51,271 nucleotides of DNA. Origin: a virus. The notes below the pieces were generated by a model. The model did not search any database and was not told the origin of the DNA. It saw nothing but the letters and a program-made list of their open reading frames with translations. The stretch spans positions 1 to 51,271 of IMG/VR virus record IMGVR_UViG_3300021964_000101; one strand, given 5' to 3'. Of the stretch, positions 19,758-46,849 are shown piece by piece (position 1 is the first letter of the stretch; each line of letters begins with the position of its first letter). A program made the position numbers and the translations under genes.

Positions 19758-20023
19758 TTCTTAAATTCAATTTCCCCCGCAATCGCACTATAACCCGCCA
19801 TATCAACGTAGGTATCCTTCGTACGTTTTCCTAATTTTGTTCTCGCTATTTTTAATAGTATCATCATAATAGCAACATCATGTGCCGAAATATCTGTTTC
19901 TAAATATGTTGACCAAAGGTTAGCTATGTTTTGATGATTCTTTGATTTTTCTCCATACTCTTTTTCTCTATCTCCTATAATTATTTTTATAGCCTCTTCT
20001 AATAGTTCTTTCGTCATTTTCAT
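19754..20023 (-). CDS. DUF6378-like phage protein
   Basis: This encodes 89 residues. The sequence shows the pattern I associate with DUF6378: DREKEYGEKSKNHQNIANLW, then DVAIMMILLKIARTK, then DTYVDMAGYSAIAGEI at the C-terminus. The family is common in phages and resembles all-alpha nucleotide-handling proteins, but its function is unknown. It overlaps both neighbours by 4 nt in the replication operon. Confidence 0.75.
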   Translation of the reverse strand: MKMTKELLEEAIKIIIGDREKEYGEKSKNHQNIANLWSTYLETDISAHDVAIMMILLKIARTKLGKRTKDTYVDMAGYSAIAGEIEFKK

Positions 20024-20379
20024 AATTTAAATATCTCCGTTATTGGTATTAAGTATGCTTTTGATTTTTTGTAATCACCTACGTTTTTAACTTTATCTTT
20101 ATGTTTTTCAACTAATTTTTTTAATTTATCTGTTTTAAACCACAGAATACAGTGGTCTTCTTCGCCATTCGCTAAAACATGAGCCCAATATGTAGCCTCT
20201 GTTTTTGCTATACCACTTGGTTTACCAAATGATTCAAATTCAACTGCTATGTTACCAGTTTTAAACCACCAATCTCTTTCCGTTTTAACTTCAATAGTCC
20301 CTTCCTCAATCATTTTCTTTATTCGTTTTTCACGACCTTGGCCGTATTTTAAATCAATATCAAATTTTGTATTTTTCAT
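20020..20379 (-). CDS. Possible PD-(D/E)XK-type nuclease-fold protein
   Basis: This encodes 119 residues. The segment EGTIEVKTERDWW is followed by IAVEFESFGKPSGIAKTEATYWAHV, a pattern similar to small endonuclease-fold proteins in phages (acidic-x-Lys on a strand, then a conserved E and a helix). A degenerate or specialised nuclease is possible. It lies near endonuclease I and the Cas4-like exonuclease, which fits DNA processing. Confidence in function is low. Confidence 0.6.
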   Translation of the reverse strand: MKNTKFDIDLKYGQGREKRIKKMIEEGTIEVKTERDWWFKTGNIAVEFESFGKPSGIAKTEATYWAHVLANGEEDHCILWFKTDKLKKLVEKHKDKVKNVGDYKKSKAYLIPITEIFKL

Positions 20380-20727
20380 TTAATGCTTCTTTCCGACATC
20401 TATTTTTTTAAATAGAGGGTCTAAATCTGATGTGTCAAGATTTTTTCCACTTTCTTGTGCGCTTACCATTTTATCAACCACGGCCATTTGCCCTAGTGAT
20501 ACTAATCTATCCATATCATATTCTAGTGTTTCTAGTATTCCTTTCATTACATAAAATACTGGATGAACACTACTTTTTGATTCTGTTGTATCATATGCAA
20601 TAACATCAAAACTACCTTCTTCATCATTATTAGGTTTAAATACCATATAAAATCTATCGGGCAATAGCCCTAATTCTTCTGATGAATCCCGGGATAAAAT
20701 AGGAAATGTTTTTTTTATTTCAGCCAT
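20380..20727 (-). CDS. Hypothetical protein of replication block
   Basis: This encodes 115 residues and is acidic, with strand patterns in the first half (LLPDRFYMVFKP, SFDVIAYDT) and helices in the second. It overlaps the 3' end of the endonuclease I gene by 13 nt, so it is likely co-translated. No domain is recognised. Confidence 0.65.
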   Translation of the reverse strand: MAEIKKTFPILSRDSSEELGLLPDRFYMVFKPNNDEEGSFDVIAYDTTESKSSVHPVFYVMKGILETLEYDMDRLVSLGQMAVVDKMVSAQESGKNLDTSDLDPLFKKIDVGKKH

Positions 20728-21071
20728 TCTTTAGGAACTTTTTTTTCACACCACATAATATTATGCTTATCACACCATGCACCATATGTTGTTTTACTTC
20801 CTTTGTAAATTTTATTCTTAGCGTTGAGAAATAAGATACGAACATCTAATTTCTTATGTTGTTTTTTAATAAGTAAATGCTTTTTTCTATCAGCCTTATC
20901 AAATAAACCTTTGACCTCAATAAAAAATTTATACTTGGTAAGATAAAAGTCCGGCATATAAACCCTAGGGTCTGGTATATACTTAAATTTATGTTTTTCA
21001 TATTCATAGTTTATGCCTTCCTTAATGAGCCATGATGCAAAGCTTATTTCAGCTTTTGAACGAAATCTCAC
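20715..21071 (-). CDS. Endonuclease I, Holliday junction resolvase (T7 gp3-like)
   Basis: This encodes 118 residues, somewhat shorter than T7 gp3. The catalytic set is visible as Glu8, Asp41 (in MPDFYL) and Glu52-x-Lys54 (IEVKG), matching T7 E20, D55, E65 and K67. The C-terminal pattern NKIYKGSKTTYGAWCDKHNI is also typical. The enzyme resolves branched DNA and helps degrade host DNA. It overlaps the upstream gene by 4 nt. Confidence 0.9.
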   Translation of the reverse strand: MRFRSKAEISFASWLIKEGINYEYEKHKFKYIPDPRVYMPDFYLTKYKFFIEVKGLFDKADRKKHLLIKKQHKKLDVRILFLNAKNKIYKGSKTTYGAWCDKHNIMWCEKKVPKEWLK

Positions 21072-21460
21072 AATAGTGTCTTTAATCTATATTTGCTTAT
21101 TGTTGCTAAATGATTTTTAAATAAAAAGAAAGTTTCTCGCGCATTTTTATCCAATTCATCCAATACCATTGTAGTATCATCTTCGGGGAAAACAATTAAT
21201 TTACCCTGTTTAATAGCCGTAATTAAACCAGTAAAACGAGAATCAACTTCATGCTTTCTACGTTTCATATTTTCATCACGCCAATACCCGTCTTTATCTT
21301 GATTATCTCTATAAAAAATAACATGACATTTTGGATTTTGTCTCATCCACCCTATGTTTTTTCTTTCATTATTTAAATCATCATAATAAATCCAAATAGC
21401 ATTATCGTCATTTAATTCAACATCTGCTTGCCTTATGTCTGCTAACCAAAGAACATTCAT
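21068..21460 (-). CDS. Hypothetical protein, possibly DUF7831-like
   Basis: This encodes 130 residues. The elements IWIYYDDL, KLIVFPEDD and ARETFFLFKNHL resemble a phage family of unknown function I know as DUF7831, in a divergent form. It overlaps endonuclease I by 4 nt and the 40-residue gene upstream by 4 nt. No catalytic motif can be named. Confidence 0.6.
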   Translation of the reverse strand: MNVLWLADIRQADVELNDDNAIWIYYDDLNNERKNIGWMRQNPKCHVIFYRDNQDKDGYWRDENMKRRKHEVDSRFTGLITAIKQGKLIVFPEDDTTMVLDELDKNARETFFLFKNHLATISKYRLKTLL

Positions 21461-21579
21461 TTGCTTTTACCTCCTCGCATGTAATGTTTTTCTGGACGAT
21501 AACTCCGCCGTTTTCGCCAAGCCCAATTATTAATTTTACCAGAAATACGTTCAATAATTATTATTAATTTTTCAATCAT
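21457..21579 (-). CDS. 40-residue basic small protein
   Basis: An ATG at 21579-21577 overlaps the exonuclease stop (ATGA), and the stop overlaps the next ATG, so it is embedded cleanly in the operon. The N-terminal half is a hydrophobic amphipathic helix (IEKLIIIIERISGKINNWAW) and the rest is basic (RKRRSYRPEK, then GGKSK). AGGAGG for the next gene lies inside its 3' end. The function is unknown. Confidence 0.6.
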   Translation of the reverse strand: MIEKLIIIIERISGKINNWAWRKRRSYRPEKHYMRGGKSK

Positions 21580-22472
21580 ATATCTTGTATATCTGTTGTT
21601 TTCAATTTACTATACCAAGTCATTGGACGAACCTTGGCTCTTGAAGTAACCTTTTGATGTAATTCTGCGTTAGGCCAACAATGTTTTTTGTATCCACAAA
21701 ACCCACACATAGATGATAATACTTTATTACCTGTTTCTTTTATCATACCTTTATCTTTTCCAATTCTAGCACGATATGTTTCTTTTACATCTTCAAAACC
21801 TTTTTTAAATGGTGTATCTGTTGTAAGCTTTTTAATGTTTGCTGATACACGTTTAACAGATTCTTTTCTCTCATCTTCTTGACCAGTAGGAGCCTCACAT
21901 ACAGCAAATTCCCCTGTTACTTTGTTAACAGCAATCCACCCACCAAAATTAGAATTATCTGCCATCGAATACATTAACCCTTGGTCAATATAACCAAAAG
22001 CATCATCTTGTTTTATTTTTTCGTATCCACCATATTCTCCAAACTTGTTACTAAAACTGGCCGGGCTTGCCGATTTAATATCCCAAATTTTATCATCTAT
22101 TTTAATATCGTATGTGCCCTCTAAATCTATATCCGCTATATTTAATTTTACACCTTGTTGTGTTTTTGATATATCAATACCTGCCCCGCGTAAAATAGCA
22201 ATAGACATTGCTTCAATCAAATCACCCAATAAAAATTTTACAATTGCATTATATTCTGTTTCGTATTCAACACCTTTTTTACCAAGCTGTTGTTGACATA
22301 ATGGCTTTCCAACCTCTGACATTCGTAATCGCCATTGTCTTTTACCGCTATTAAATTGTTTCTCAATAGCTTTACCGCAAGATTCTTTAAACTCCTCTAT
22401 AACAGAAGAGGGAAGACTAGCTTCCCCCTTCGATGCGTCATACAAAAAATTTTCGACTAACGTCTTAATCAT
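21576..22472 (-). CDS. Cas4/RecB-type PD-(D/E)XK exonuclease with Fe-S cysteines
   Basis: This encodes 298 residues. The nuclease core shows Asp122 (GTYDIKI), Asp131-Ile-Lys133 (WDIKSAS) and Gln164 (IDQGLMYSM). One cysteine before the core (Cys59) and three after it (Cys256, Cys259, Cys265) match the four-cysteine iron-sulfur arrangement of Cas4 and AddB-type nucleases. It is probably a 5'-3' exonuclease doing the job of T7 gp6 in host DNA breakdown, primer removal or recombination. It overlaps the candidate ssDNA-binding gene by 4 nt. Confidence 0.8.
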   Translation of the reverse strand: MIKTLVENFLYDASKGEASLPSSVIEEFKESCGKAIEKQFNSGKRQWRLRMSEVGKPLCQQQLGKKGVEYETEYNAIVKFLLGDLIEAMSIAILRGAGIDISKTQQGVKLNIADIDLEGTYDIKIDDKIWDIKSASPASFSNKFGEYGGYEKIKQDDAFGYIDQGLMYSMADNSNFGGWIAVNKVTGEFAVCEAPTGQEDERKESVKRVSANIKKLTTDTPFKKGFEDVKETYRARIGKDKGMIKETGNKVLSSMCGFCGYKKHCWPNAELHQKVTSRAKVRPMTWYSKLKTTDIQDI

Positions 22473-23323
22473 GCCGGCTGTGCCTCAATATCGATAGCTA
22501 GGGAGTGGTCGCCATCATTTGTTTTAAGTTTTACAGCCTCACGATGTTTTTCCATGACACTTTCATTTACCGCTTGAACAGTATCGGCAAATTCTTTTAA
22601 CAATACTTTATCATCATTAGATATTGTATCTACACTAGTTTTTACTGTAGGTTCAACAATGAAAAAAGTATTACCTGTTGTTTTTTGTTTTTTCGTAGCC
22701 AATGATAATACTGTTCTTATCATTGGTTTCTTTTGCCTAGCTAAATTATTAATTACCTTTTGGAAAGGAATATAATTTACGCCTTTAGCATAAAATACAC
22801 ATGGATAATTTTCAATCGGTTCAAATTGTGAATCATCAGCGTATTTACCCTCTAAAATACTAACAGTACCATAAATGACTTGATTACATTTAACTTGATT
22901 GCTAAGTATTTTTTTAGGGTCAGTGTCGTTAAGTTCAGCCAATTCATCTTTTGTTAGTTTGCCACATTTGTAGCTTCCTTGAACATCAGGGAATTGGTCA
23001 CTTAAACTTGGTCTTTGGACAGAGCCCACAAATGTATCCTCTGCATTATCCCAATAACTATAACTAAACACACGCATAAACATTCTAAAATCAACTGTTT
23101 TTGCATATGCTGTTTTCTCCCCTACACGTAATGAAAACCAACCTCTCGGTAGTGGCTTATCATTATCGTCTTCAGCTTGATAATTTATTGATAGTCTTGA
23201 TAATACAGAAGGTGAGTCTCCGCCAATGGCTATACCTTGACCTGTTAACTGCATTAATTGTTCATCAGTAATAGAGTCAAAGTTTTCTGGAATGGCAATT
23301 GCCATGTTTTCATTATTAGTCAT
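22469..23323 (-). CDS. Candidate single-stranded DNA-binding protein
   Basis: This encodes 284 residues. It is beta-rich with strands around PRGWFSLRVGEKTAYAKTV, VFYAKGVNYIPF and NTFFIVEPTV, and ends in an acidic-flanked tail. Position between polymerase and exonuclease, size and composition agree with a phage ssDNA-binding or recombination-mediator protein. I recall similar proteins beside Cas4-like exonucleases in marine phages, without a tested function. It overlaps both neighbours. Confidence 0.55.
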   Translation of the reverse strand: MTNNENMAIAIPENFDSITDEQLMQLTGQGIAIGGDSPSVLSRLSINYQAEDDNDKPLPRGWFSLRVGEKTAYAKTVDFRMFMRVFSYSYWDNAEDTFVGSVQRPSLSDQFPDVQGSYKCGKLTKDELAELNDTDPKKILSNQVKCNQVIYGTVSILEGKYADDSQFEPIENYPCVFYAKGVNYIPFQKVINNLARQKKPMIRTVLSLATKKQKTTGNTFFIVEPTVKTSVDTISNDDKVLLKEFADTVQAVNESVMEKHREAVKLKTNDGDHSLAIDIEAQPA

Positions 23324-24866
23324 CGGTTTTATATACCTCCTCGGTTTCTAACCAGTTGTTTCCCATTTTCAATTCAATACCGATAGGCATATCATATTCA
23401 ACACCATATCTTCTTATCGTTTCTTGCGGTAAGATTAACATAGCATCTTTCAATGTTTCTATCGCTATATCCTCTTCACTGGGATATACGTCTAATACAA
23501 TACTATCATGTACTGTGTTACACACAATAGTTTTTAATTTGCGATTTGTCAACAATTTTTTTAAATAAATTAATGCAATTGGCAATAAATCTGCTGTTGC
23601 AAAACCTTGTACCGGATAATTCTTAATAGCAGTGGCATTTGATACAGAACCACTAGGCATTCTCTCGGTATTTGGGAAATAATACATTCTTCCGGAAGGT
23701 AAGACAACGTGCCGTGTTTCTAATGCTTGATTAATTAAATCTCTATGCCAACGCGTTACACCAGAATATTTTTCTTTAAATGCCCTATAGTATTGCATCT
23801 GTTTTGGTGTACCTAATACACCCCCATATAGTGGTTTAAAAGTATCTGCTTTAGCGACTTGACGTGATACACCAAGTATCTTTGCTGTAAAGCTATGTAC
23901 ATCTACTTTATTTTTTACATCAGCATATATTTGTTCATCATCCGATAAAAATCCGGCAACACGAAACTCTAATTGAGAATAGTCACCTTCTAATATCTTA
24001 CCCCCTTCCCAACGCGATACAATACACTTACGAACAGGAAATGTACCACCCCTTGGCATGTTTTGGAAGTTTGGATTGCGTGAACTAAGTCTACCTGTTG
24101 AGGTTACACATTGCATATACTGGGGATGAATAAAATTATTTTCATCTTTACTTCTTTGAATACCATCAACGAATGTTCTTAGATATGTTCTTATTGCAGA
24201 ATAACGGACATACTTTTCTAAAAATTCTCGTTGGCTTGGATTAATAGATGTAATAAATTCTTCTAATGTTGTTTTATCTGTTTTAAATCCTGTCGCCGAT
24301 GTATCTACCGAGTTACGCGGTATCAAACGTAAACCGGCACGCTCTTTTGTATCAGTAAATAGTCGACCTTTTGCATTGCATGTTTTACAATTTCTTTTTA
24401 CTTTACTGTATGTACCATCTTTTTTCTTGTAATGATATTTACCTGTGCCTTCACAGTTGTGACACAGTTTTGACACAGTTTTAAACACAGGTCTAGCGAG
24501 GGCATTTACGGCATGATAGAAATCATTAATATCGTCATAATTTGTTTTTCGTTTTTTCTTCTTTGTATTGCCGCGTAATTCATAACCAATATTAAATTCT
24601 TTAGCCCATTCTTTTTTATCAACAACACGCATAGAAAAAAATAGTATTGACCTATCATCTGGTGAGTCTAAATTAATTGGCGTATCACCCATTAATTCAC
24701 TAGTTTTTTTGTTCAAAAAAGCCTGTAAATCAGTTAATTCTTGATTATACTGTTCCCTAATATCGGAAAGTGCTTTGTCATCAATTTTAATTCCATTGTA
24801 TTCAATGTCAGCAAGAACTCTAATAAGTTCCATACTTAGTTGTAGTGTCGGTACTAAATTTGCCAT
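23316..24866 (-). CDS. DNA polymerase, family A, polymerase domain only
   Basis: This encodes 516 residues. Motif A is GDYSQLE (Asp295-Glu300), motif B has Arg335, Lys339, Phe343 and Tyr347-Gly348, and motif C is VHDSIV (His453-Asp454). TGRLSSRNPNFQNMP (257-271) binds template-primer in the family. Phe343 occupies the position of E. coli Pol I Phe762. A four-cysteine insertion (Cys135, 138, 160, 163; CxxCxGxG-like pairs) lies between the N-terminal region and the fingers/palm, which T7 gp5 lacks. The exonuclease domain is a separate upstream gene overlapping by 13 nt. GAGG lies 4 nt before the start. Confidence 0.93.
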   Translation of the reverse strand: MANLVPTLQLSMELIRVLADIEYNGIKIDDKALSDIREQYNQELTDLQAFLNKKTSELMGDTPINLDSPDDRSILFFSMRVVDKKEWAKEFNIGYELRGNTKKKKRKTNYDDINDFYHAVNALARPVFKTVSKLCHNCEGTGKYHYKKKDGTYSKVKRNCKTCNAKGRLFTDTKERAGLRLIPRNSVDTSATGFKTDKTTLEEFITSINPSQREFLEKYVRYSAIRTYLRTFVDGIQRSKDENNFIHPQYMQCVTSTGRLSSRNPNFQNMPRGGTFPVRKCIVSRWEGGKILEGDYSQLEFRVAGFLSDDEQIYADVKNKVDVHSFTAKILGVSRQVAKADTFKPLYGGVLGTPKQMQYYRAFKEKYSGVTRWHRDLINQALETRHVVLPSGRMYYFPNTERMPSGSVSNATAIKNYPVQGFATADLLPIALIYLKKLLTNRKLKTIVCNTVHDSIVLDVYPSEEDIAIETLKDAMLILPQETIRRYGVEYDMPIGIELKMGNNWLETEEVYKTDD

Positions 24867-25399
24867 AAGTCCTCAAATTCTAAATTCATTTTATCCATTT
24901 GTTTTTTTGCTAACTGCCATGTAACTTCAATATCTTGTATACCATATTTTTCTACAATGGGCCACGGTATGTGTTCAAAAGAAACTTTTCTTTTCATGTA
25001 TGGGTCAATTAATTCTGTAGCTTTTAAATCTACACTTCTTCTCTTACAACTATCTTCTAAACTAAAAGTTCTTTTTAGTCCTTTCGCTAATAAATATTCT
25101 ACAACCATGGTATCATGTAGAATACCATTAAAAGTAAATCCACAACTTACTAGCCAATTGTAATCAAATTTTATGTTATGTCCAATAAGAACATCTGTTT
25201 TATCTAATGCTTGTTGTAAAATTTGTTTGCCATTTTCTGTTGGTTCTTTTTCTGTATGATAAAAACACAAGTATTGGCAAGGCTCTTCCATAATTTTATA
25301 ACCTACAGAAACTAACATATCCCCTTCAAATGGACTTGATACTGTTCCATTATCTTTTTCATGATATGTCGTCTCAACATCTAATGTTGTTATAATCAT
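24854..25399 (-). CDS. 3'-5' proofreading exonuclease (DnaQ-like), split from polymerase
   Basis: This encodes 181 residues. Motifs are Exo I LDVETT (Asp7, Glu9), Exo II GHNIKFDYNWL (Asp79) and Exo III YGIQDIEVT (Tyr152, Asp156). It corresponds to the N-terminal domain of T7 gp5 and presumably works with the polymerase encoded immediately downstream. The gene overlaps helicase by 4 nt and polymerase by 13 nt. Confidence 0.9.
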   Translation of the reverse strand: MIITTLDVETTYHEKDNGTVSSPFEGDMLVSVGYKIMEEPCQYLCFYHTEKEPTENGKQILQQALDKTDVLIGHNIKFDYNWLVSCGFTFNGILHDTMVVEYLLAKGLKRTFSLEDSCKRRSVDLKATELIDPYMKRKVSFEHIPWPIVEKYGIQDIEVTWQLAKKQMDKMNLEFEDLWQI

Positions 25400-26598
25400 T
25401 CAAATACTCCCCTTTCAATATCAATTGATGAATAAATATTTCCGTGCCAACCATTTAATTTATTTTTACTTGTATGTAAAGTTCTAGCGTTATCCCCTTC
25501 TCCTCTACCAATACCTAAGATGATGTCGGCCTCACCGGCCTTACCGGTACGTGAATTATCTAAGTGTTCATAACTAACTTCATGTAAGTTTTGCGCTTCA
25601 TAGCTAGCTTGGGATACAGCCCATACTAAACAATTATGTCGTTTTGCTATTTCTCTTGTTCGAACATAAACTTCTTTTAACTTTTCATCCGTACGATTAA
25701 ATGAACCATTGATATGCACTTTATCTAATTGGTCAATAAACATTACATCTGGATTATATAATCTAGCATAATTATCAATCTCATCAATGTGCGTCCCCAC
25801 ACTATCAAAAACAGTAAGGTAATCTTTTATTTCCGCGTGATATCGCGGTCTAAAATAATCTAGTCTATTTGCTACTTCTTGTTTTGATACTTCAAAATGT
25901 GATTGTATTATTCTTGTTTTAATACGGACAGCCGGCTCTTCATTAGCCCAATATGTTACTTTCTTTTTTTGTTGTATGTACCCGGACGCTAAAAAGCTAG
26001 AAAATGTTGTCTTACCCATTTCTGGTCTAGCTAATAAAATACAAAAGTGTCCCCGGGATAAAGAAGTAATTCTAGTTTGTAATGATTCTAACCTAAAATT
26101 AAATTCTCCTTTATCAACGGAACCATCGAATAGCTCATCAATGTCAGCTTTTATTTCAAAATAACTATCAGCATCAATTAATTCTTGTTCATTTATTCTT
26201 TCTACCATATTTTTTAAACCAGTAATTGCTTCTGGTTTTTCATGGCCATTAAATATATCAACTGCTAATTCGCCAACTTCTTTTGCTTTGCTTCTAATCC
26301 AAAAGTTTTTTATGATATCAATATTTAGTTCCGCATTGAGATTAGTTTCGGGTATTGTATCAATAACTTTACAAATATTGTCATAACTTGATTTAGGTGT
26401 AGCCGGATAAAGGTCAGCATGCATAACCTTTAAATCATTATTTGTTAGTAATTGTTCTGGATGTTTTTCATGTGTTCTTGAAATTAAAGTATATATGATA
26501 TTTAGATTGCTATTAAATGCAGACTTATCAATAAATCTTTTTACTTTATTCCAATTCTCGTAGCTTTTACAAATGCTTAGAACTTGTATTGGTATCAT
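25396..26598 (-). CDS. Replicative DNA helicase (DnaB/T7 gp4 helicase type)
   Basis: This encodes 400 residues. The RecA-like motor shows Walker A ARPEMGKTT (190-198), conserved Glu220 region (YWANEEP), Walker B VMFIDQ (285-290) and motif III VSQASYE (328-334). The N-terminal 150 residues are helical, as in DnaB-type proteins that dock primase. It unwinds DNA 5'-3' ahead of the polymerase. It overlaps the primase gene by 32 nt, so the T7 gp4 functions are here on two polypeptides. Confidence 0.88.
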   Translation of the reverse strand: MIPIQVLSICKSYENWNKVKRFIDKSAFNSNLNIIYTLISRTHEKHPEQLLTNNDLKVMHADLYPATPKSSYDNICKVIDTIPETNLNAELNIDIIKNFWIRSKAKEVGELAVDIFNGHEKPEAITGLKNMVERINEQELIDADSYFEIKADIDELFDGSVDKGEFNFRLESLQTRITSLSRGHFCILLARPEMGKTTFSSFLASGYIQQKKKVTYWANEEPAVRIKTRIIQSHFEVSKQEVANRLDYFRPRYHAEIKDYLTVFDSVGTHIDEIDNYARLYNPDVMFIDQLDKVHINGSFNRTDEKLKEVYVRTREIAKRHNCLVWAVSQASYEAQNLHEVSYEHLDNSRTGKAGEADIILGIGRGEGDNARTLHTSKNKLNGWHGNIYSSIDIERGVFE

Positions 26599-27385
26599 TC
26601 ATCCACCCCCATGCTTTTTTATTTACTTTATCTACCAAATTTTTAATATCATCATAATCCATATTTTTTATATCATCTTCTAAAATTAAAAATTTTGTAT
26701 TCATCACTAAATTTAATTCATCACAAATTGCTGTTGCTTTTTGTGTAGCGTCCCTATCAAGGGCAACACCAACTCTATCATATTGTTTTATCAAATCAAT
26801 ATGTTTTTGTAAAAGGCTTGTTCCAAGTAAAGCTATACCCGTAGCAAATCGGGATAATGCACATGCACTTGCACAATCTTCAACAATAATTGCTGTTTTG
26901 CTTGTACCACAAATAAAAGGATATCTACTTTTACCATAACGATACCACTTTGGTTTCATATCATTTATAGAACGACCAACAGCGTCAACTATATTTCCAT
27001 TTTCATCTTTAACCAAAAAAACTGTTCTTGCTAAATTTTTATCATAGCGAATGTCAGCTAACCCTAAATTCATAGCGTCATAACTCTTTGATTTTCTTAG
27101 ATAATTTATACTATCTACATTAAATTTTGCACTTTCCCAATCGGGCGGTACAAAAAACTTTTCTTCTTCTTTTTCTGTAATTATTTTTTCTTTTCTTTTA
27201 AAAACTTCTTTTGATAGTTTTTCTCTCGATACTCCTCTAGTATCACAATCGGCATGGAAACAATTGTATAAAATATTATTACCATCATGAAAAGCAGAGA
27301 AAGTATTCCTATTAAAACATATAGGGCAATCAATTCTAATTGAAGTATTAGGTTTGAGATTAAGTTTTTCAAATAGTTCTTTCAT
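26567..27385 (-). CDS. DNA primase (zinc finger and TOPRIM)
   Basis: This encodes 272 residues. The zinc finger uses Cys20, Cys23, Cys42 and Cys47 (CPIC, then CFHADC). The TOPRIM core has Glu169 (TAIIVEDC) and the Asp210-x-Asp212 pair (VALDRDA). It matches the primase half of T7 gp4. It is the first gene of the leftward operon. GGGAGT precedes its ATG on the minus strand. Confidence 0.88.
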   Translation of the reverse strand: MKELFEKLNLKPNTSIRIDCPICFNRNTFSAFHDGNNILYNCFHADCDTRGVSREKLSKEVFKRKEKIITEKEEEKFFVPPDWESAKFNVDSINYLRKSKSYDAMNLGLADIRYDKNLARTVFLVKDENGNIVDAVGRSINDMKPKWYRYGKSRYPFICGTSKTAIIVEDCASACALSRFATGIALLGTSLLQKHIDLIKQYDRVGVALDRDATQKATAICDELNLVMNTKFLILEDDIKNMDYDDIKNLVDKVNKKAWGWMNDTNTSSKHL

Positions 27386-27533
27386 GGTACTCCCTTTTTA
27401 TTTTCTTCTATATAAATTTTTTTTCATGTCAATTAAATTTTTTTATTGACAAGTATTTTTTTATCAATAAAAAGGGGGAACCCCCCACCCCCTATAGGGG
27501 AATAGCCGACCAATTATTATAAGGGAGTAAATT
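27386..27533. promoter_or_regulatory. Divergent control region between replication and early blocks
   Basis: This 148-nt stretch separates the two outward-facing blocks. TGTCAAT (27427-27433) and ATTGACA (27445-27451) form an inverted pair, giving a consensus -35 hexamer in each direction. On the plus strand TAAAAA lies 16 nt after TTGACA, the spacing of the other promoters here. The minus -10 is weak. Downstream are a GGGGGAACCCCC stretch, a perfect palindrome CCCCTATAGGGG (27489-27500), and AGCCGACCAATTATTA (27504-27519), the inverse of an element in the 34.7-kb control region. Confidence 0.5.
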
Positions 27534-27707
27534 ATGCAAGATAAAAAATTATTATTACATGTACCCACGGAAATGAAAAAGTGGGCAGATAAAATGTATG
27601 ATGCTGAATTTGAAGGTAAAATGCGTAGTTATCATGAATATAGAAATTTATATTTGCATTATAAAGAGTTAAATGATAGGGGAGTAGAGTATGAGCCAAC
27701 CTTTTGA
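27534..27707 (+). CDS. Small protein, first gene of early block
   Basis: This encodes 57 residues after AAGGGAG, with a start 16 nt before the next gene overlaps its end. The protein is helical and charged with aromatic residues (WADKMYDAEFEGKM, YHEYRNLYLHYKEL). As the gene nearest the divergent promoter it is probably expressed very early. The function is unknown. Confidence 0.65.
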   Translation: MQDKKLLLHVPTEMKKWADKMYDAEFEGKMRSYHEYRNLYLHYKELNDRGVEYEPTF

Positions 27708-28011
27708 ATGGACTAAAGAAAATTATCAAAAAGCTTTAGAGTTGTCTAAAACAAAAATGACAATGACTGAAATTGGGAAAGTGTTGGGTACAACAAAAAA
27801 TGCTGTACTAGGTAAACTACACCGGGAAAAAAAGAAAAATGGATACAAGAAAAATCAAAACCGAAACACCCGGGGCCCTAGTCATAATTACTATTTTAAA
27901 ACAATTGGCAAAAACACATGCACGTTATGTAATAAAGAGTTTGATATACAGAGTAAGTTTGATAGGTTTTGTATGTCATGTAAAAAAACTGATTTTTATA
28001 GGAGTGGATAA
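27691..28011 (+). CDS. GcrA-like transcription regulator with C-terminal zinc motif
   Basis: This encodes 106 residues. WTKENYQKALELSKTKMTMT and then EIGKVLGTTKNAVLGKLHR (27-45) follow the GcrA helix-turn-helix pattern, including Trp7-Thr8 and the NAVxGKxHR signature. A four-cysteine zinc motif (Cys77, 80, 94, 97) lies at the C-terminus, as in many GcrA proteins. GcrA is an alphaproteobacterial cell-cycle regulator that acts with sigma-70 at methylated promoters. A phage copy could redirect host transcription. It overlaps both neighbours. Confidence 0.75.
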   Translation: MSQPFEWTKENYQKALELSKTKMTMTEIGKVLGTTKNAVLGKLHREKKKNGYKKNQNRNTRGPSHNYYFKTIGKNTCTLCNKEFDIQSKFDRFCMSCKKTDFYRSG

Positions 28012-28283
28012 TGAAAGAAAGAACTAAATATTACGCAGAATTGACAATGATGGAACCTCATAAACGAAATTCTTTTGATAAAGATTATATGAGAGGAAAA
28101 GCTAACGCATTTTTATTTACTTTAAATGCTTTAACACTTTCTGAAGAAGATAATCCTGTTGATTTGCTAAAGTATGTAGAAAAATACGTTAAAAATGAAT
28201 TAAAAAAGATAGGTATTGTACCTCATCCGTTACAAAAATTAGATTTTAAAAAACTAGGAGTGGATAATGAAAATAGAAGTTAA
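28011..28283 (+). CDS. Hypothetical early protein
   Basis: This encodes 90 residues. The start overlaps the previous stop (TAATG). It is helical and charged, with a conserved-looking RNSFDKDYMRGKANAFLFTL segment near 19-38. The next small gene begins inside its 3' end. No family is recognised. Confidence 0.65.
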   Translation: MKERTKYYAELTMMEPHKRNSFDKDYMRGKANAFLFTLNALTLSEEDNPVDLLKYVEKYVKNELKKIGIVPHPLQKLDFKKLGVDNENRS

Positions 28284-28383
28284 AACAGAGGATTGTGTTT
28301 ATATTACTATCAATGGATATGTTTATTATATTGATGACTCAACCGGGGAAAGGATAATGAAAAAATGGAAAGAAAAGAAGTAA
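28267..28383 (+). CDS. 38-residue early peptide
   Basis: The ATG follows AGGAGTGG and overlaps the end of the previous gene; the next gene starts inside it. It has beta-hairpin-like sequence (IEVKTEDCVYITINGYVYYI) and a Lys-rich tail. The chain of overlaps supports translation. The function is unknown. Confidence 0.6.
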   Translation: MKIEVKTEDCVYITINGYVYYIDDSTGERIMKKWKEKK

Positions 28384-28583
28384 ACAAAAGGCTATACGAA
28401 TTAAAAGTAGATGTTCTTGAAACTAGAATTTATCATGTATACGCTGAAGATGAGTCTGAATTAAACGATTTATGGATGTCTGGTAAAGCATGTAAGGGTG
28501 AACCCGCTAGAATAGATTATGTCAGACAAAGTAAAAGGGGTTGGAAAATGATTAAAAATAAAGAGAATGTCAAAACAAATTAA
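28365..28583 (+). CDS. Small hypothetical early protein
   Basis: This encodes 72 residues, overlapping both neighbours by 16 to 19 nt. It combines a strand-rich centre (LKVDVLETRIYHVYAEDESE) with a basic C-terminus. The pattern resembles small DpnD/PcfM-like phage proteins, but the match is too weak to name. Confidence 0.6.
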   Translation: MERKEVNKRLYELKVDVLETRIYHVYAEDESELNDLWMSGKACKGEPARIDYVRQSKRGWKMIKNKENVKTN

Positions 28584-28911
28584 ATTACCAAAGTATGTTA
28601 CTATTGGGGCTTACAAAGTCGAACTTGTCAAAATAGCCCATGAAATAGCATATGAGAGTTCAGATTATCAAGGCAGTTTTGTCAGTAATCCACCCTTAAA
28701 AATATTTTTAGATGAAGATATAATTAATAGTGGGGGTATGGACGCGGTTAATTTAGTTTTACATGAACTTTGTCACGTTGGTTTTTATCAATACGGAATG
28801 AAAGATAAAGATGAAGAGCATATTGTAAATAGTTATGGAAATTTTTTAACAGAGGTGTTAATGAGAAGTGAAATAAAGGAGTGGTTAGTATGGCAAATAA
28901 AAAATGCATGA
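28567..28911 (+). CDS. Putative zinc metalloprotease-like protein (HExxH)
   Basis: This encodes 114 residues. The motif VLHELCHVGFYQYG gives His66-Glu67-x-x-His70, with acidic residues Glu83/Glu84 in a following helix as possible third zinc ligand. The fold size is that of small SprT-like or ImmA-like gluzincins found in phages. It might cut a host protein or be a catalytically inactive scaffold. A zinc-ribbon gene overlaps its 3' end. Confidence 0.7.
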   Translation: MSKQIKLPKYVTIGAYKVELVKIAHEIAYESSDYQGSFVSNPPLKIFLDEDIINSGGMDAVNLVLHELCHVGFYQYGMKDKDEEHIVNSYGNFLTEVLMRSEIKEWLVWQIKNA

Positions 28912-29060
28912 AGTGTGAAAATAAGTTAGCTACCATAAGATACAAAGATACTAAGTGGTATTGTACTTTATGCTATATAAAATTATTTCATGCTGTGGAT
29001 AACTTTGCAAAAATTTTATTGACAGCAAAAAACAAAGAGTTTAAAAGAGATAGTGTTTAG
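28890..29060 (+). CDS. 56-residue zinc-ribbon protein
   Basis: The ATG follows AAGGAG and overlaps the end of the HExxH gene. Two CxxC knuckles (Cys6-Cys9 and Cys25-Cys28) are 16 residues apart, giving a zinc ribbon, followed by an amphipathic helix (IKLFHAVDNFAKILLTAK). The stop codon lies inside the first hairpin of the structured RNA region that follows. Small zinc ribbons often bind nucleic acid or RNA polymerase, but no target is visible. Confidence 0.7.
   Translation: MANKKCMKCENKLATIRYKDTKWYCTLCYIKLFHAVDNFAKILLTAKNKEFKRDSV
29019..29045 (+). promoter_or_regulatory. Candidate promoter for the structured RNA region
   Basis: TTGACA at 29019-29024 matches the -35 consensus exactly. TTTAAA (29040-29045), 15 nt later, is a four-of-six -10 match. 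Transcription would start about 29052, at the base of the first helix. The site lies within the end of the zinc-ribbon gene. The short spacer and poor -10 keep this tentative. Confidence 0.35.
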
Positions 29061-29610
29061 TGAAAGCTAAACGCTTGGGTGGTTGTTCTCGACAACACAA
29101 AAAACGGGAAACATGTTTAGGAGTGGGCATGGTAGATATATCTGTAAGTCCTTTTCCTAACACAAGAATAAAAAAGATGTACCAAGTTTGGTAGACGATT
29201 TGGTAAGCCTTTATTCTTGTTAAGTCTACCAACAAGATAAGCCGTGTTAAAGCGTGTGCTGTCTTAGTAGGTAATGACAATGTAAAACTGGTTTGAAACG
29301 TTTTTGTTGTTACCTACACTAAGTTTATGTGAGGGTTATAGTCACTATTAGTGGTATACGAAAGTATACAAGGTAATTGTTCGTCTATTGATAACTTCAT
29401 TAAGTTGGCGGCTCGTGATAGTAGCGAGTTAAAAAGGCAGACTAAAAGCAGATGTAAATAGCCATATGTAGCCTTCACATAAATTTAGTTTTTAATCAGA
29501 ATAAGTCTGGTTAGAAAAGAAGGACATAATATGTAGTATCGCCGTATTTCATATAATCCTTCTAACATTATGGTAGATATTGTTTTATAAATGGTGTCTA
29601 CCATAATTAG
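29050..29610 (+). ncRNA. Candidate large structured noncoding RNA (about 560 nt)
   Basis: No plausible gene occupies this stretch, but it is full of complementary segments. Examples: 29053-60 with 29067-74; 29162-72 with 29210-20 (11 perfect pairs); 29267-80 with 29304-17 (14 pairs, two G-U); 29319-34 with 29473-88 (16 pairs, two G-U); a perfect hairpin 29354-59/29364-69 with GAAA loop; 29510-14 plus 29520-24 with 29557-66; and 29567-78 with 29596-607 (12 pairs). Pseudoknots are possible between 29188-96 and 29224-32 (9 perfect) and between 29438-43 and 29504-09. Size and style recall large phage RNAs such as GOLLD and ROOL, but no homology is claimed. The strand is inferred from the neighbouring genes and promoter. 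Confidence 0.65.
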
Positions 29611-29622
29611 TAAGGGAGTTAC

Positions 29623-30066
29623 ATGAAAAGAATAAATCCAGAAACTGGCAAACCATTTAAGCAAGGGGATACCCGGGAAGATGGATACCTTTTTAAAGGG
29701 TACAAACTTAGTCTTGGTGTAAAGAAAAATGGGTTTTACGGCGAGTATTGGTACAACCCTTTATCGTATAAAAAACTTTGTGAAGATAACAAAAAAGATA
29801 AAAAAAGAATCTATAATTTTATTACAAAATTTTTAAATAAATGGAAAAGTTTAAAAGGTTGTCATTATTGTCATAATGAATTTAGACCGACAAGCTTACA
29901 ATTTCATCACATTGATAGAAAAACAAAATCTAATAATGTTTCAGAAATGTGGCGAAGTAGTTGGAAAAGTATTGTTAAATTAAAAAATGAAATTAGAAAA
30001 TGTCATGTTACTTGCTATAATTGTCATACATTAATTACTATGGGGGAAAATAAAAATGTCAGCTAA
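29623..30066 (+). CDS. HNH endonuclease
   Basis: This encodes 147 residues after AAGGGAG. The zinc-binding HNH fold shows Cys80-x-x-Cys83, the catalytic-type LQFHHIDRKTKSNNV (His95/His96) and Cys131-x-x-Cys134-His. The N-terminus (ETGKPFKQGDTREDGYLFKGY) resembles sequence-recognition segments of free-standing phage HNH homing enzymes. It should nick or cut DNA, and may be a selfish element or serve in competition or host DNA breakdown. It begins 13 nt after the structured RNA region. Confidence 0.85.
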   Translation: MKRINPETGKPFKQGDTREDGYLFKGYKLSLGVKKNGFYGEYWYNPLSYKKLCEDNKKDKKRIYNFITKFLNKWKSLKGCHYCHNEFRPTSLQFHHIDRKTKSNNVSEMWRSSWKSIVKLKNEIRKCHVTCYNCHTLITMGENKNVS

Positions 30067-30379
30067 TGATTGGAATTTAATTGACGCGGACTTGTCAAAA
30101 TATTCAAACACAAAATTTAAAGCGGGTGGTCGGCTATATTTTATAAAGCCCGGCAGAAAAAATGTCAGCATTTATGAGTTGTCAGTAAGAAAAAATGTCA
30201 GCCTTAGAATGTCAGCCTTACCCAAATTTTTTATTGATGAAGCCGATAAGCTTCAACAATCTATCTTAAATAAATATCCTAACACATTGAAAAATATATA
30301 TAAAACTTTTATGTTATTTAAACAAAAAACAAATATTGAAAAAAATATATTAGATACCCTAAAAAAATATAAAAAATAA
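30056..30379 (+). CDS. Hypothetical early protein
   Basis: This encodes 107 residues, overlapping the HNH gene by 11 nt. It is basic and partly repetitive: RKNVS occurs at two places and the DNA word AATGTCAGC recurs through the first third. The C-terminus is a Lys-rich helix. TGGTCGGCTAT (30127-30137) within it matches the control-region element. The function is unknown. Confidence 0.6.
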   Translation: MSANDWNLIDADLSKYSNTKFKAGGRLYFIKPGRKNVSIYELSVRKNVSLRMSALPKFFIDEADKLQQSILNKYPNTLKNIYKTFMLFKQKTNIEKNILDTLKKYKK

Positions 30380-30444
30380 TATTTGATTATTTTATTAATA
30401 ATGTTTAACTAGCTTTATTAATTTTTAACAAGGGAGTTTTAAAA

Positions 30445-30846
30445 ATGGAATTAATAAAAGGTAGTATACCTCATCACATACAAAAAATTGCAGGTAATCA
30501 AGGAATATTTTACATGGAGTTTTTGAAAAAAGATAAAAGACTTTATGTTATAAAAAAATATAATGATGGTTCAGAGTCGCAAATATTAAATCCCGATTAT
30601 GGTAAAAATACAATTTTACGAAAAGGCAACTTTAGGCTAGGCGTTACAAAATTTTTAAAAGGTAAAAAAAGAACTACTGACCCTAGCGCATATTTGATAG
30701 CTTATGATATGAATAAAAAAGGTTATAGAAATATTTTATATAATAACATTCAAAAAATTGTAGCTAATAAAAAAACATATGAAGTAAAAGTCATTGATAC
30801 AAAACATTTTAGACTTGGTTTAATTAGTGAAGGTAAAAAAAAATGA
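30445..30846 (+). CDS. Hypothetical basic early protein
   Basis: This encodes 133 residues after AAGGGAG. It is basic and beta-rich (KKDKRLYVIKKYNDGSESQI, FRLGVTKFLKG), suggesting a nucleic-acid-binding fold. It overlaps the GP88-like gene by 4 nt, so the two are probably coupled. No family is recognised. Confidence 0.65.
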   Translation: MELIKGSIPHHIQKIAGNQGIFYMEFLKKDKRLYVIKKYNDGSESQILNPDYGKNTILRKGNFRLGVTKFLKGKKRTTDPSAYLIAYDMNKKGYRNILYNNIQKIVANKKTYEVKVIDTKHFRLGLISEGKKK

Positions 30847-31556
30847 TTAAAGGTAATGCAAAACTTCGAGAATATACGACTATTTATCAAAAAAATGTAA
30901 AAACTATAAATTCACTTAAAGATTATGAAAGTTATGGCCATAAGTTGCTTAAACAATCTAACAATAAAAAATTAGGAAAAGTTGTTAAAAAGGGCAAGTA
31001 TAAAGGCCGGGCGCTTATTTCATTGAGTTTAGTTGAGCGTGAAATGGGTTGCCCCCGGTCTTGCCACCATTGGAACAGCTGTTATGGGAATAATATGCCT
31101 TTTGCTCATAGATTTAAAACTGATAACGATATATTATTTTGTTCAATATTAAAAAATGAAATACTTAATTTACTTAAAAAGCACAAAGCCGGTATTCATA
31201 TTCGGCTGCATGTATTAGGTGATTTTTTCAGTAATTATTATATAGATTTTTGGCGGTCTATTTTATTTAATAATGAAAAAGTCAGTATTTATGGATATAC
31301 AGCGCATAAGCCAACAAGTGAACTAGGTAAACAAATTAAACATGTAATTGATAAAATGAGTTTTGAGCGGTTCGCTATTCGTTTTAGTAATTCTAACGTT
31401 AATTTATCGGCTAATAGTACAGAATATAAGCCCCGGGTAATAGGTCAATTAAAGGGCCTTATATGTCCCGAACAAGATAACAAAGTTGATAGTTGCTCAA
31501 ATTGTGCGCTTTGTTGGAATGATAAGGCGCAACAAATCCTATTTAAAACGCATTAA
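30843..31556 (+). CDS. GP88-like cysteine-rich protein
   Basis: This encodes 237 residues. The N-terminal cysteine set (MGCPRSCHHWNSCYG; Cys70, 74, 80), the central block IRLHVLGDFFS (120-130) and the C-terminal set CPEQ...SCSNCALCW (Cys208, 218, 221, 224) match the phage Gene product 88 family, first named in mycobacteriophages. Its function is unknown; metal or Fe-S binding is likely from the cysteines. It is placed among candidate host-takeover genes. Confidence 0.8.
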   Translation: MIKGNAKLREYTTIYQKNVKTINSLKDYESYGHKLLKQSNNKKLGKVVKKGKYKGRALISLSLVEREMGCPRSCHHWNSCYGNNMPFAHRFKTDNDILFCSILKNEILNLLKKHKAGIHIRLHVLGDFFSNYYIDFWRSILFNNEKVSIYGYTAHKPTSELGKQIKHVIDKMSFERFAIRFSNSNVNLSANSTEYKPRVIGQLKGLICPEQDNKVDSCSNCALCWNDKAQQILFKTH

Positions 31557-31561
31557 TTACT

Positions 31562-31756
31562 ATGATACAACTTAAACTTAAATTTAGTAAAAATACCCTT
31601 TTAAAACATGGGTATAGCTTAAATAATAATATTATTTCATTTAACCTAAATAATGGCCATTTATTAAAATTAGAAATAGATAGTATTAATAACATGGAAG
31701 TGAAAAAAATTATTGTAAATAAACAAAGTAATGATAAAAAGGGGGTAGCGCAATAA
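31562..31756 (+). CDS. Small hypothetical protein
   Basis: This encodes 64 residues just downstream of the GP88-like gene. It shows beta-strand alternation (IQLKLKFSKNTLLKHGYSL, HLLKLEIDSI) and a Lys-rich end. The ribosome-binding site is poor, so expression by coupling is assumed. The function is unknown. Confidence 0.5.
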   Translation: MIQLKLKFSKNTLLKHGYSLNNNIISFNLNNGHLLKLEIDSINNMEVKKIIVNKQSNDKKGVAQ

Positions 31757-31792
31757 TGCGCTATTTTAAACTTTTAAAAAGGGAGTTTTATT

Positions 31793-32794
31793 ATGACTAC
31801 TATAATTCATAATGACATTAATAATTTGGATGCTTTTAAACTTGATATAAAAGAAGTTTGGGAGCCTACAATTGAAACTAAATTTGGGCCGGTAAAATTA
31901 GAAGGCCAAAAAATATTGTTTGAAAAAAATTCTTTAGCGCCTTTAGGTCGCTCAAGGTCAAAACAATATAAACTTATTGACCCTAAAAAACTTTTTTCTG
32001 CTCACGCTAAAAAACTTATTTCTGATAATAAAATCAATATGAATAATATTGAAGTTCATGATAGTATTTTTGAAGGCGGGAAAAAACAGAAAAGAAGTAT
32101 TATTTTTAAGGATTATTCCATAAAAGATAGTAGCGGGTCTACTGTTTTTATGCGCTCCGATACTTATAACAGCGTTGATATGTCCTGGATGTTTCAAAAT
32201 CATACTGGAGCATTCAGAGATAGTTGCGCCAATGGTTGCGTTTTTGGGGGTCAACGACTCTATCACACTAAACAAAAACACACTTTAAATTTAAATATAC
32301 CTAGCATTTTAAAACAAGTTTCAGAGACCCTTGAAATTTGGGCTAATAATAAAGATACCATGAAAAAATATATGGATATTAAAATTGATTACAAACAGGT
32401 TGCTTTTTTATTATGTGAAACAATTTGTAAAAAAATTAATTCACTTTCAAAATATGGTATTCAAGAAAAAGTTTCAGTTAATAAAAAACTACTGGAATAT
32501 TTTTTAAATAAATTTGACGAGCAACAAGGCGCTTTAGGTAATACAGTTTGGAATTTTTACAATTGTCTTACTTATTACTCGAGTCATATTAATGATACAT
32601 TTACTAGAATTGATGACAGGGGAATTGAAAAAGAAATCAAAATGACCCGCGCCGGTTCTAATGTACATACAGCGCAAGTAAAACGTGAGGAAAAAGTAAG
32701 AGATTTATTAAACGATAAACTTTTCATTGCGTTTATTGATGGTAAAGGGCTTAATATTCCTATGGGGTGGAGTATTGAAAAACAGGTAAATTAA
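31793..32794 (+). CDS. DUF932-like phage/plasmid protein
   Basis: This encodes 333 residues after AAAGGGAG. The central block (about 110-160, with MRSDTYNSVDMSWMFQNHTG and CANGCVFGG) and the C-terminal WNFYNCLTYYSSH segment (256-268) resemble DUF932, a family common on phages and plasmids. Its role is unknown; links to replication or anti-restriction have been suggested by context only. The gene ends the main early operon before short membrane peptides. Confidence 0.65.
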   Translation: MTTIIHNDINNLDAFKLDIKEVWEPTIETKFGPVKLEGQKILFEKNSLAPLGRSRSKQYKLIDPKKLFSAHAKKLISDNKINMNNIEVHDSIFEGGKKQKRSIIFKDYSIKDSSGSTVFMRSDTYNSVDMSWMFQNHTGAFRDSCANGCVFGGQRLYHTKQKHTLNLNIPSILKQVSETLEIWANNKDTMKKYMDIKIDYKQVAFLLCETICKKINSLSKYGIQEKVSVNKKLLEYFLNKFDEQQGALGNTVWNFYNCLTYYSSHINDTFTRIDDRGIEKEIKMTRAGSNVHTAQVKREEKVRDLLNDKLFIAFIDGKGLNIPMGWSIEKQVN

Positions 32795-46266: not shown

Positions 46267-46601
46267 TGTCAACAAAAAATAGAACAGTAGCTTTAGAATT
46301 AGGAACATCTAATAGTGATATCTATACAGTTCCTAATAACTATGAAACAGAAGTTAAAAGTATTTTTATTAGTAATCTAACAGGTAATCAAGTAACTTTT
46401 AGTTTAGATTGGTATGACAGTTCAGCAACAACCTACTATACTATTACGGAAGCAACTAAGTTATTACCAAATGCTATAATACAAATTACTGAATCTTTAT
46501 GGTTAGAAGAAGCAGATAAAATAAGAGGTTTAGCTAGTGCTACCAGTTCTGTTAGTATTAGTATTAATGTAGAAGAAGCATATATACCAAGGCAAATTTA
46601 A
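46266..46601 (+). CDS. Small virion structural protein
   Basis: This encodes 111 residues with a clear jelly-roll-like alternation (SDIYTVPNNYETEVKSIFIS, VTFSLDWYDSS, SVSISINVEEAY). It appears to pair with the preceding gene and shares its one-base overlaps. It is probably a minor decoration or head-tail interface protein. Confidence 0.6.
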   Translation: MSTKNRTVALELGTSNSDIYTVPNNYETEVKSIFISNLTGNQVTFSLDWYDSSATTYYTITEATKLLPNAIIQITESLWLEEADKIRGLASATSSVSISINVEEAYIPRQI

Positions 46602-46849
46602 TGGCTTTAGCTAAATCACAACGAAGTTTAAAAGCTTGGGGGAAACAAAAATGGCGAACAAAGTCTGGGAAAAAGTCAAGCAATACTGGAGAAAGATATC
46701 TACCAGAGAAAGCAATAAAAGCCCTGACATCTGCCGAATATGCGGCAACGACAAAAGCCAAGCGAAAAGGAACAAAAAAGGGCAAACAGTCTGTGAAGCA
46801 ACCAAAACGTATTGCAAAGAAAACAGCAAAATATAGAAAATTTTCTTGA
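46601..46849 (+). CDS. DUF5872-like basic protein
   Basis: This encodes 82 residues, very basic. The order KSQRSLKAWGKQKWRTKSGK, RYLPEKAIKALTSAEYAAT and KGKQSVKQPKRIAKKTAKYR corresponds to DUF5872, known from cyanophages and other viruses with unknown function. The promoter for tail genes begins inside its last codons. Confidence 0.75.
   Translation: MALAKSQRSLKAWGKQKWRTKSGKKSSNTGERYLPEKAIKALTSAEYAATTKAKRKGTKKGKQSVKQPKRIAKKTAKYRKFS

Follow-up and report, generated by a model that had tools for sequence, protein, structure and literature searches.

Phages of the HMO-2011 type are a dominant marine group with a wide distribution (PMC9038755). A two-knuckle "partial DnaJ central domain" is already known as a hallmark of their DNA polymerases (PMC6918029, PMC9038755, PMC8528129), and the GenBank record of HMO-2011 lists PF00684 (DnaJ_CXXCXGXG) for its polymerase; MEP401 polymerases do not carry the domain (PMC10580990). 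A link with chaperones has been hinted at, citing the role of DnaJ in lambda replication (PMC9038755), and we found no functional test of the DnaJ-like piece in these papers. In the family A polymerases of T7, human mitochondria and plant organelles, thumb insertions either serve as binding sites for processivity factors or meet the DNA in models (PMC7699545), and basic residues of the T7 thioredoxin-binding domain (TBD) touch the DNA backbone in simulation (PMC5984650).

Here we describe a polymerase of this kind encoded in a window of 51,271 nucleotides, the whole stretch of DNA analysed (IMG/VR virus record IMGVR_UViG_3300021964_000101, positions 1 to 51,271). The DnaJ-like domain itself is already known, and the window is an HMO-2011-type member in which exonuclease and polymerase are encoded by split genes. 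Three points appear to be unpublished: the location of the zinc finger in the thumb, its basic charge in every relative and the exonuclease/polymerase split.

Results

The source virus and its replication module

The source virus belongs to the HMO-2011-type phages. Both HTVC033P and HMO-2011 have matches to its TerL, portal, coat, primase, helicase and polymerase (identities to these two phages of about 50-53% for TerL, 47-52% for portal and 42-56% for coat), the primase-helicase-polymerase order is common to the three genomes, and the nearest isolate polymerase is that of Pelagibacter phage HTVC033P, with 44% identity. A nucleotide search among phages with window positions 20000-32000 gave no match. 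The window has a GC content of 33.5%, like pelagiphage subgroups, and we infer SAR11 as the host. An 82-aa protein (46601-46849) is 90% identical to its HTVC033P counterpart and 69% to that of HMO-2011, while larger common proteins show 25-56%; recent transfer or strong constraint are possible explanations. The replication module (Table 1) also holds a phage endonuclease I (20715-21071; PF05367, E=1.3e-35), as does HMO-2011, and a Gp88-like protein (30843-31556; PF17338, E=5.5e-8) lies on the strand opposite to the replication operon.

Table 1. Coordinates of the polymerase, its insertion and the neighbouring genes in the window
Feature	Position	Strand	Evidence
Family A DNA polymerase without exonuclease domain, with zinc-finger insertion, 516 aa	23316..24866	minus	Pfam DNA_pol_A E=6.3e-50
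Thumb insertion, residues 80-182, between H1-like helix (69-77) and next thumb helix (198-205)	24321..24629	minus	alignments to Klenow, T7 gp5 and outgroup phage polymerases; DSSP of model
Predicted DnaJ-type zinc hairpin, residues 128-176	24339..24485	minus	Cys135/138/160/163 invariant; Pfam DnaJ_CXXCXGXG 1.2e-5 on segment; fold search
DnaQ-like 3'-5' exonuclease, own gene, 181 aa	24854..25399	minus	Pfam DNA_pol_A_exo1 E=8.3e-6
DnaB-like replicative helicase, polymerase operon	25396..26598	minus	Pfam DnaB_C 3.9e-14; PHROG 19 5.8e-54
Toprim DNA primase, polymerase operon	26567..27385	minus	PHROG 47 2.9e-23
Conserved 284-aa protein downstream of polymerase	22469..23323	minus	31% / 25% identity to HTVC033P / HMO-2011 homologues, same place
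Cas4-domain-like exonuclease family protein, 298 aa	21576..22472	minus	PHROG 1990 4.7e-26; 39% / 34% identity to HTVC033P / HMO-2011

The polymerase belongs to family A, with the catalytic motif residues D295, R335, K339, F343 and H453-D454 invariant in its relatives and the TGR motif at residues 257-259. Its AF2 model, built on a 71-sequence alignment, has a mean pLDDT of 89.3 and a pTM of 0.81, and superposes on Bst, Taq and Pol theta with Z of about 30-32 over ~385 residues, leaving a remainder of approximately the length of the insert. T7 polymerase was absent among the matches listed in this whole-model search, which has no bearing on relatedness. Phe343, the counterpart of E. coli Pol I Phe762, is invariant across the HMO-2011-type group; the Pol I 762-type position is discussed in connection with the replication style of virioplankton.

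A conserved DnaJ-type putative zinc finger

The original prediction placed four cysteines in two CxxC knuckles at 24380-24470, and these are real and correctly located to within 2 bases (codons 24464..24462 for Cys135, 24455..24453 for Cys138, 24389..24387 for Cys160 and 24380..24378 for Cys163). Their CxxCxGxG-like context holds fully for knuckle 1 (CHNCEGTG) and departs at one glycine in knuckle 2 (CKTCNAKG), where Ala165 stands for the first Gly; 110 of 217 relatives have G in this column, and CRP-207 and CRP-345 are two isolates that also depart from it. Within the polymerase, Pfam DnaJ_CXXCXGXG matches residues 132-172 at E=1.5e-4 with 22.4 bits, below the gathering score of 32.7, and when the insert is taken as a separate segment 67 of 70 sequences match at E<=0.01.

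Conservation was followed in at least 240 relatives from IMG/VR and 11 isolates, which gave 217 distinct polymerase sequences. The IMG/VR scans used six patterns per query and kept the best 80 loci each, so that the sample covers the closer relatives; of the patterns, KYHYKKKD in the first scan overlapped the finger, and in the other two scans there was no such overlap. All four cysteines, together with Gly140, Gly142 and Gly167, are invariant in the 217 distinct sequences among the matches listed, down to 38% identity, so that the loss of cysteines in close homologues, which would have spoken against the finger, was not observed and chance cysteines are ruled out. The finger cysteines rank among 73 near-invariant columns of the polymerase.

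The finger appears to be restricted to this phage group. A tblastn search with the insert (E<=1) in 50,697 phage records matched only HMO-2011-type isolates (12 records, 11 isolates), and the CRP-738 insert as query added just the polymerase of one Bacillus phage (E=0.6). No paired CxxC was found at the insert site in T7 and six other phage polymerases from the match list.

Predicted fold of the finger

The likeness to DnaJ was borne out in both sequence and fold. A profile of 70 inserts picks up the cysteine-rich domain of E. coli DnaJ (1exk) with E=0.0014, the match spanning motifs 2-3, that is, zinc centre II, and reaches E=0.04 against the lambda antiterminator Q. The finger is modelled with pLDDT 82-96 within the full polymerase, and the insert folded alone has a pLDDT of 88.4. 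The top Foldseek and VIA-align matches of the isolated insert are DnaJA2, BSD2, Anti-TRAP, UvrA, E. coli DnaJ and DNA-bound lambda Q (7ubl); owing to the small size of the domain, Z does not exceed 4.1 (DnaJA2), and there is no Foldseek E-value <0.1. The predicted fold is a two-knuckle beta hairpin resembling the half of the DnaJ cysteine-rich domain that holds motifs 2+3, and the four invariant cysteines together with this fold suggest one bound zinc ion. A search for a J domain in the window polymerase gave no Pfam match and no HPD in the sequence.

Position in the thumb and charge

The Klenow thumb (IEMPLVPVLSRIERNGVKID...NLSSTKQLQTILFE) can be aligned with residues 10-78, and past the insert the alignment picks up again. 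The helix names H and H1 come from the Klenow and T7 structures. In T7 gp5 the thioredoxin-binding domain comes before FNPSSRDHIQKKL, the H1 equivalent, while in the window the insert follows the counterpart INLDSPDDRSILFF; this equivalence was read by eye from an NLxS motif common with Klenow, as the automatic T7 alignment shifts the segment. The AF2 model gives the same order, with a helix at 30-59, a short loop, a helix at 69-77, the insert with strands at 124-176 and a helix at 198-205. Model and alignment leave ~10 residues between the first two of these helices, so that the T7 site between H and H1 is free of any insertion. The finger is thus inserted inside the thumb and does not link the exonuclease domain to the polymerase domain, where the papers place it; its site adjoins the slot of the T7 thioredoxin-binding domain and yet differs from it. 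The original prediction had also stated that T7-type polymerases lack the insert, and the alignment with T7 gp5 agrees. Its further suggestion, that the finger may replace a thioredoxin-like processivity contact, is retained as an analogy only: both insertions lie in the thumb, but the T7 domain precedes H1 and the zinc finger follows it.

The expected Lys-rich context was found throughout, as each of the 217 sequences has an insert of net positive charge (+1 to +23, median +13), compared with -5 for the 79 residues ahead of it and +3 for the other 334. The window insert has a net charge of +16. The hairpin between the knuckles carries +3 to +11, with K/R at position 148 in all sequences and at position 129 in 99%. 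Because the inter-knuckle sequence varies, only some basic positions are fixed.

Split exonuclease and polymerase genes

In all cultured HMO-2011-type phages exonuclease and polymerase form one protein. In the window the exonuclease has its own gene in another frame, with a 13-nt overlap (24854-24866) with the start of the polymerase. At least 42 loci including the window are split, that is, at least 41 relatives, and at least 178 complete and 20 truncated loci are fused. The catalytic positions D7, E9, N75, D79, Y152 and D156 are each retained in at least 95% of the split exonucleases. On the tree, the fused and split labels need two changes, with the split forms in two clades nested within a fused background.

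The overlap in split loci is of 8, 11, 13, 25 or 41-44 nt, or is replaced by a gap, and the frame relation varies by sublineage (offset 2 or 1, or offset 0 with 186 nt between the genes). Since overlap lengths vary and frame relations differ, the split is a gene fission and not a frameshift. A sequencing or programmed frameshift was ruled out: near relatives are also split, the frame relation differs between sublineages, and where the two window genes meet the exonuclease frame has no slippery heptamer. Translational coupling of both genes is probable. We found no mention of the split in the papers cited here. The tree of PMC9038755 was built from DNAPs >540 aa, and because of this limit the 516-aa split form would fall outside it; the split-gene lineage shows that such a tree would omit these phages.

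Discussion

We propose that the finger is a zinc-stabilised basic hairpin at the thumb tip that grips the primer-template duplex and raises processivity, a reading to which we assign about an even chance. The ~100-residue insertion sits at the thumb tip, where it would lie next to the DNA with zinc stiffening the hairpin. Behind the primer end, the conserved basic residues (Lys129, Lys148 and the Lys/Arg-rich inter-knuckle loop) would close over the duplex, and this contact would slow dissociation. The finger may then do without a cofactor what the thioredoxin-binding-domain clamp does in T7, from a site that lies one loop farther on in the thumb. It would likewise resemble the thumb insertions of mitochondrial and plant organellar polymerases (PMC7699545). 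The proposal is built on position in the sequence, fold prediction, invariance, positive charge and restriction to one phage group, from which we infer zinc occupancy, the DNA contact and the effect on processivity. Zinc hairpins of the DnaJ type are indeed present in DNA-binding proteins, namely lambda Q on DNA (7ubl) and UvrA. More tentatively, and with the balance somewhat against it, the finger may constitute a built-in, cofactor-free processivity clamp that evolved at a second thumb site, independently of the T7 thioredoxin-binding domain, and acts in a lineage with a separate exonuclease subunit.

The main rival, possible although rather unlikely, is that the finger serves as a replisome dock for the phage helicase, primase or ssDNA-binding protein, like the basic loops of the T7 TBD. 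The T7 TBD binds the C-terminal tail of SSB (PMC7699545), the window shares the gene order described above with HMO-2011 and HTVC033P, and the positive charge of the insert also fits binding of acidic protein tails, for example those of ssDNA-binding proteins. Such docking is nevertheless compatible with simultaneous DNA contact. A mainly structural role in the stability of the extended thumb, or the tuning of fidelity or lesion bypass with no large effect on processivity, seems improbable to us: plant organellar polymerases do need thumb insertion 1 for lesion bypass (PMC7699545), but a purely structural role has no need of a consistent positive charge.

The original prediction also considered that the finger might dock the separate exonuclease, which we now regard as very unlikely. 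Some contact must join the two proteins, given that the exonuclease gene is separate, and usually overlapping, in the window and at least 41 relatives. However, the finger is invariant in both arrangements, and just as much in the at least 178 complete single-chain relatives, which argues against an exonuclease-docking device. Moreover, it probably predates the split, because split genes are nested among fused ones on the tree. The tip of the Klenow thumb and the exonuclease site also lie apart. Recruitment of the host DnaK/DnaJ chaperones has an equally slim chance, for in spite of the resemblance in sequence and fold to DnaJ zinc centre II only half a DnaJ cysteine-rich domain is present, and the fold also occurs in UvrA, Anti-TRAP and lambda Q, which are not DnaK co-chaperones.

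Since the DNA-binding proteins lambda Q and UvrA also use a DnaJ-like fold, such a fold need not mean a chaperone function. With the finger placed in the thumb and not between domains, the loose notion of a chaperone gives way to a simple hypothesis on processivity that can be tested, the grip of a basic hairpin on the primer-template duplex.

Comparison with known systems

The closest systems are the HMO-2011-type polymerases (HMO-2011 gp12, HTVC033P gp22, CRP-1/2/3 and others), which are likewise of family A, share the two-knuckle partial DnaJ domain and the gene order, and are 37-44% identical to the window polymerase. Their isolates encode one exonuclease-polymerase protein of 678-716 aa, whereas the window uses two genes and has no exonuclease in the same protein. 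The second knuckle of the window is CxxCxAxG in place of CxxCxGxG; all Cys of the domain are present, and of its four Gly three remain.

Near relatives outside this group, the Zobellviridae and MEP401-type polymerases (ICP2, MEP401), are without the zinc finger, and their split falls within the polymerase domain and not between exonuclease and polymerase. In Vibrio phage ICP2 (L258:715-2808) the polymerase annotation comprises two ORFs, and the insertion that this polymerase has at the thumb position of the finger is Cys-poor and unrelated.

DnaJ (Hsp40) zinc centre II shares with the finger the CxxCxGxG knuckles on a beta hairpin. Type I DnaJ has four motifs and two zinc sites, while the window finger has two motifs and one predicted zinc site, inside a polymerase. 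T7 gp5 is also a family A phage replicative polymerase with a basic thumb insertion, of approximately 75-100 residues. Its insertion, however, lies between helices H and H1, has no zinc finger and needs host thioredoxin, whereas that of the window is placed after H1.
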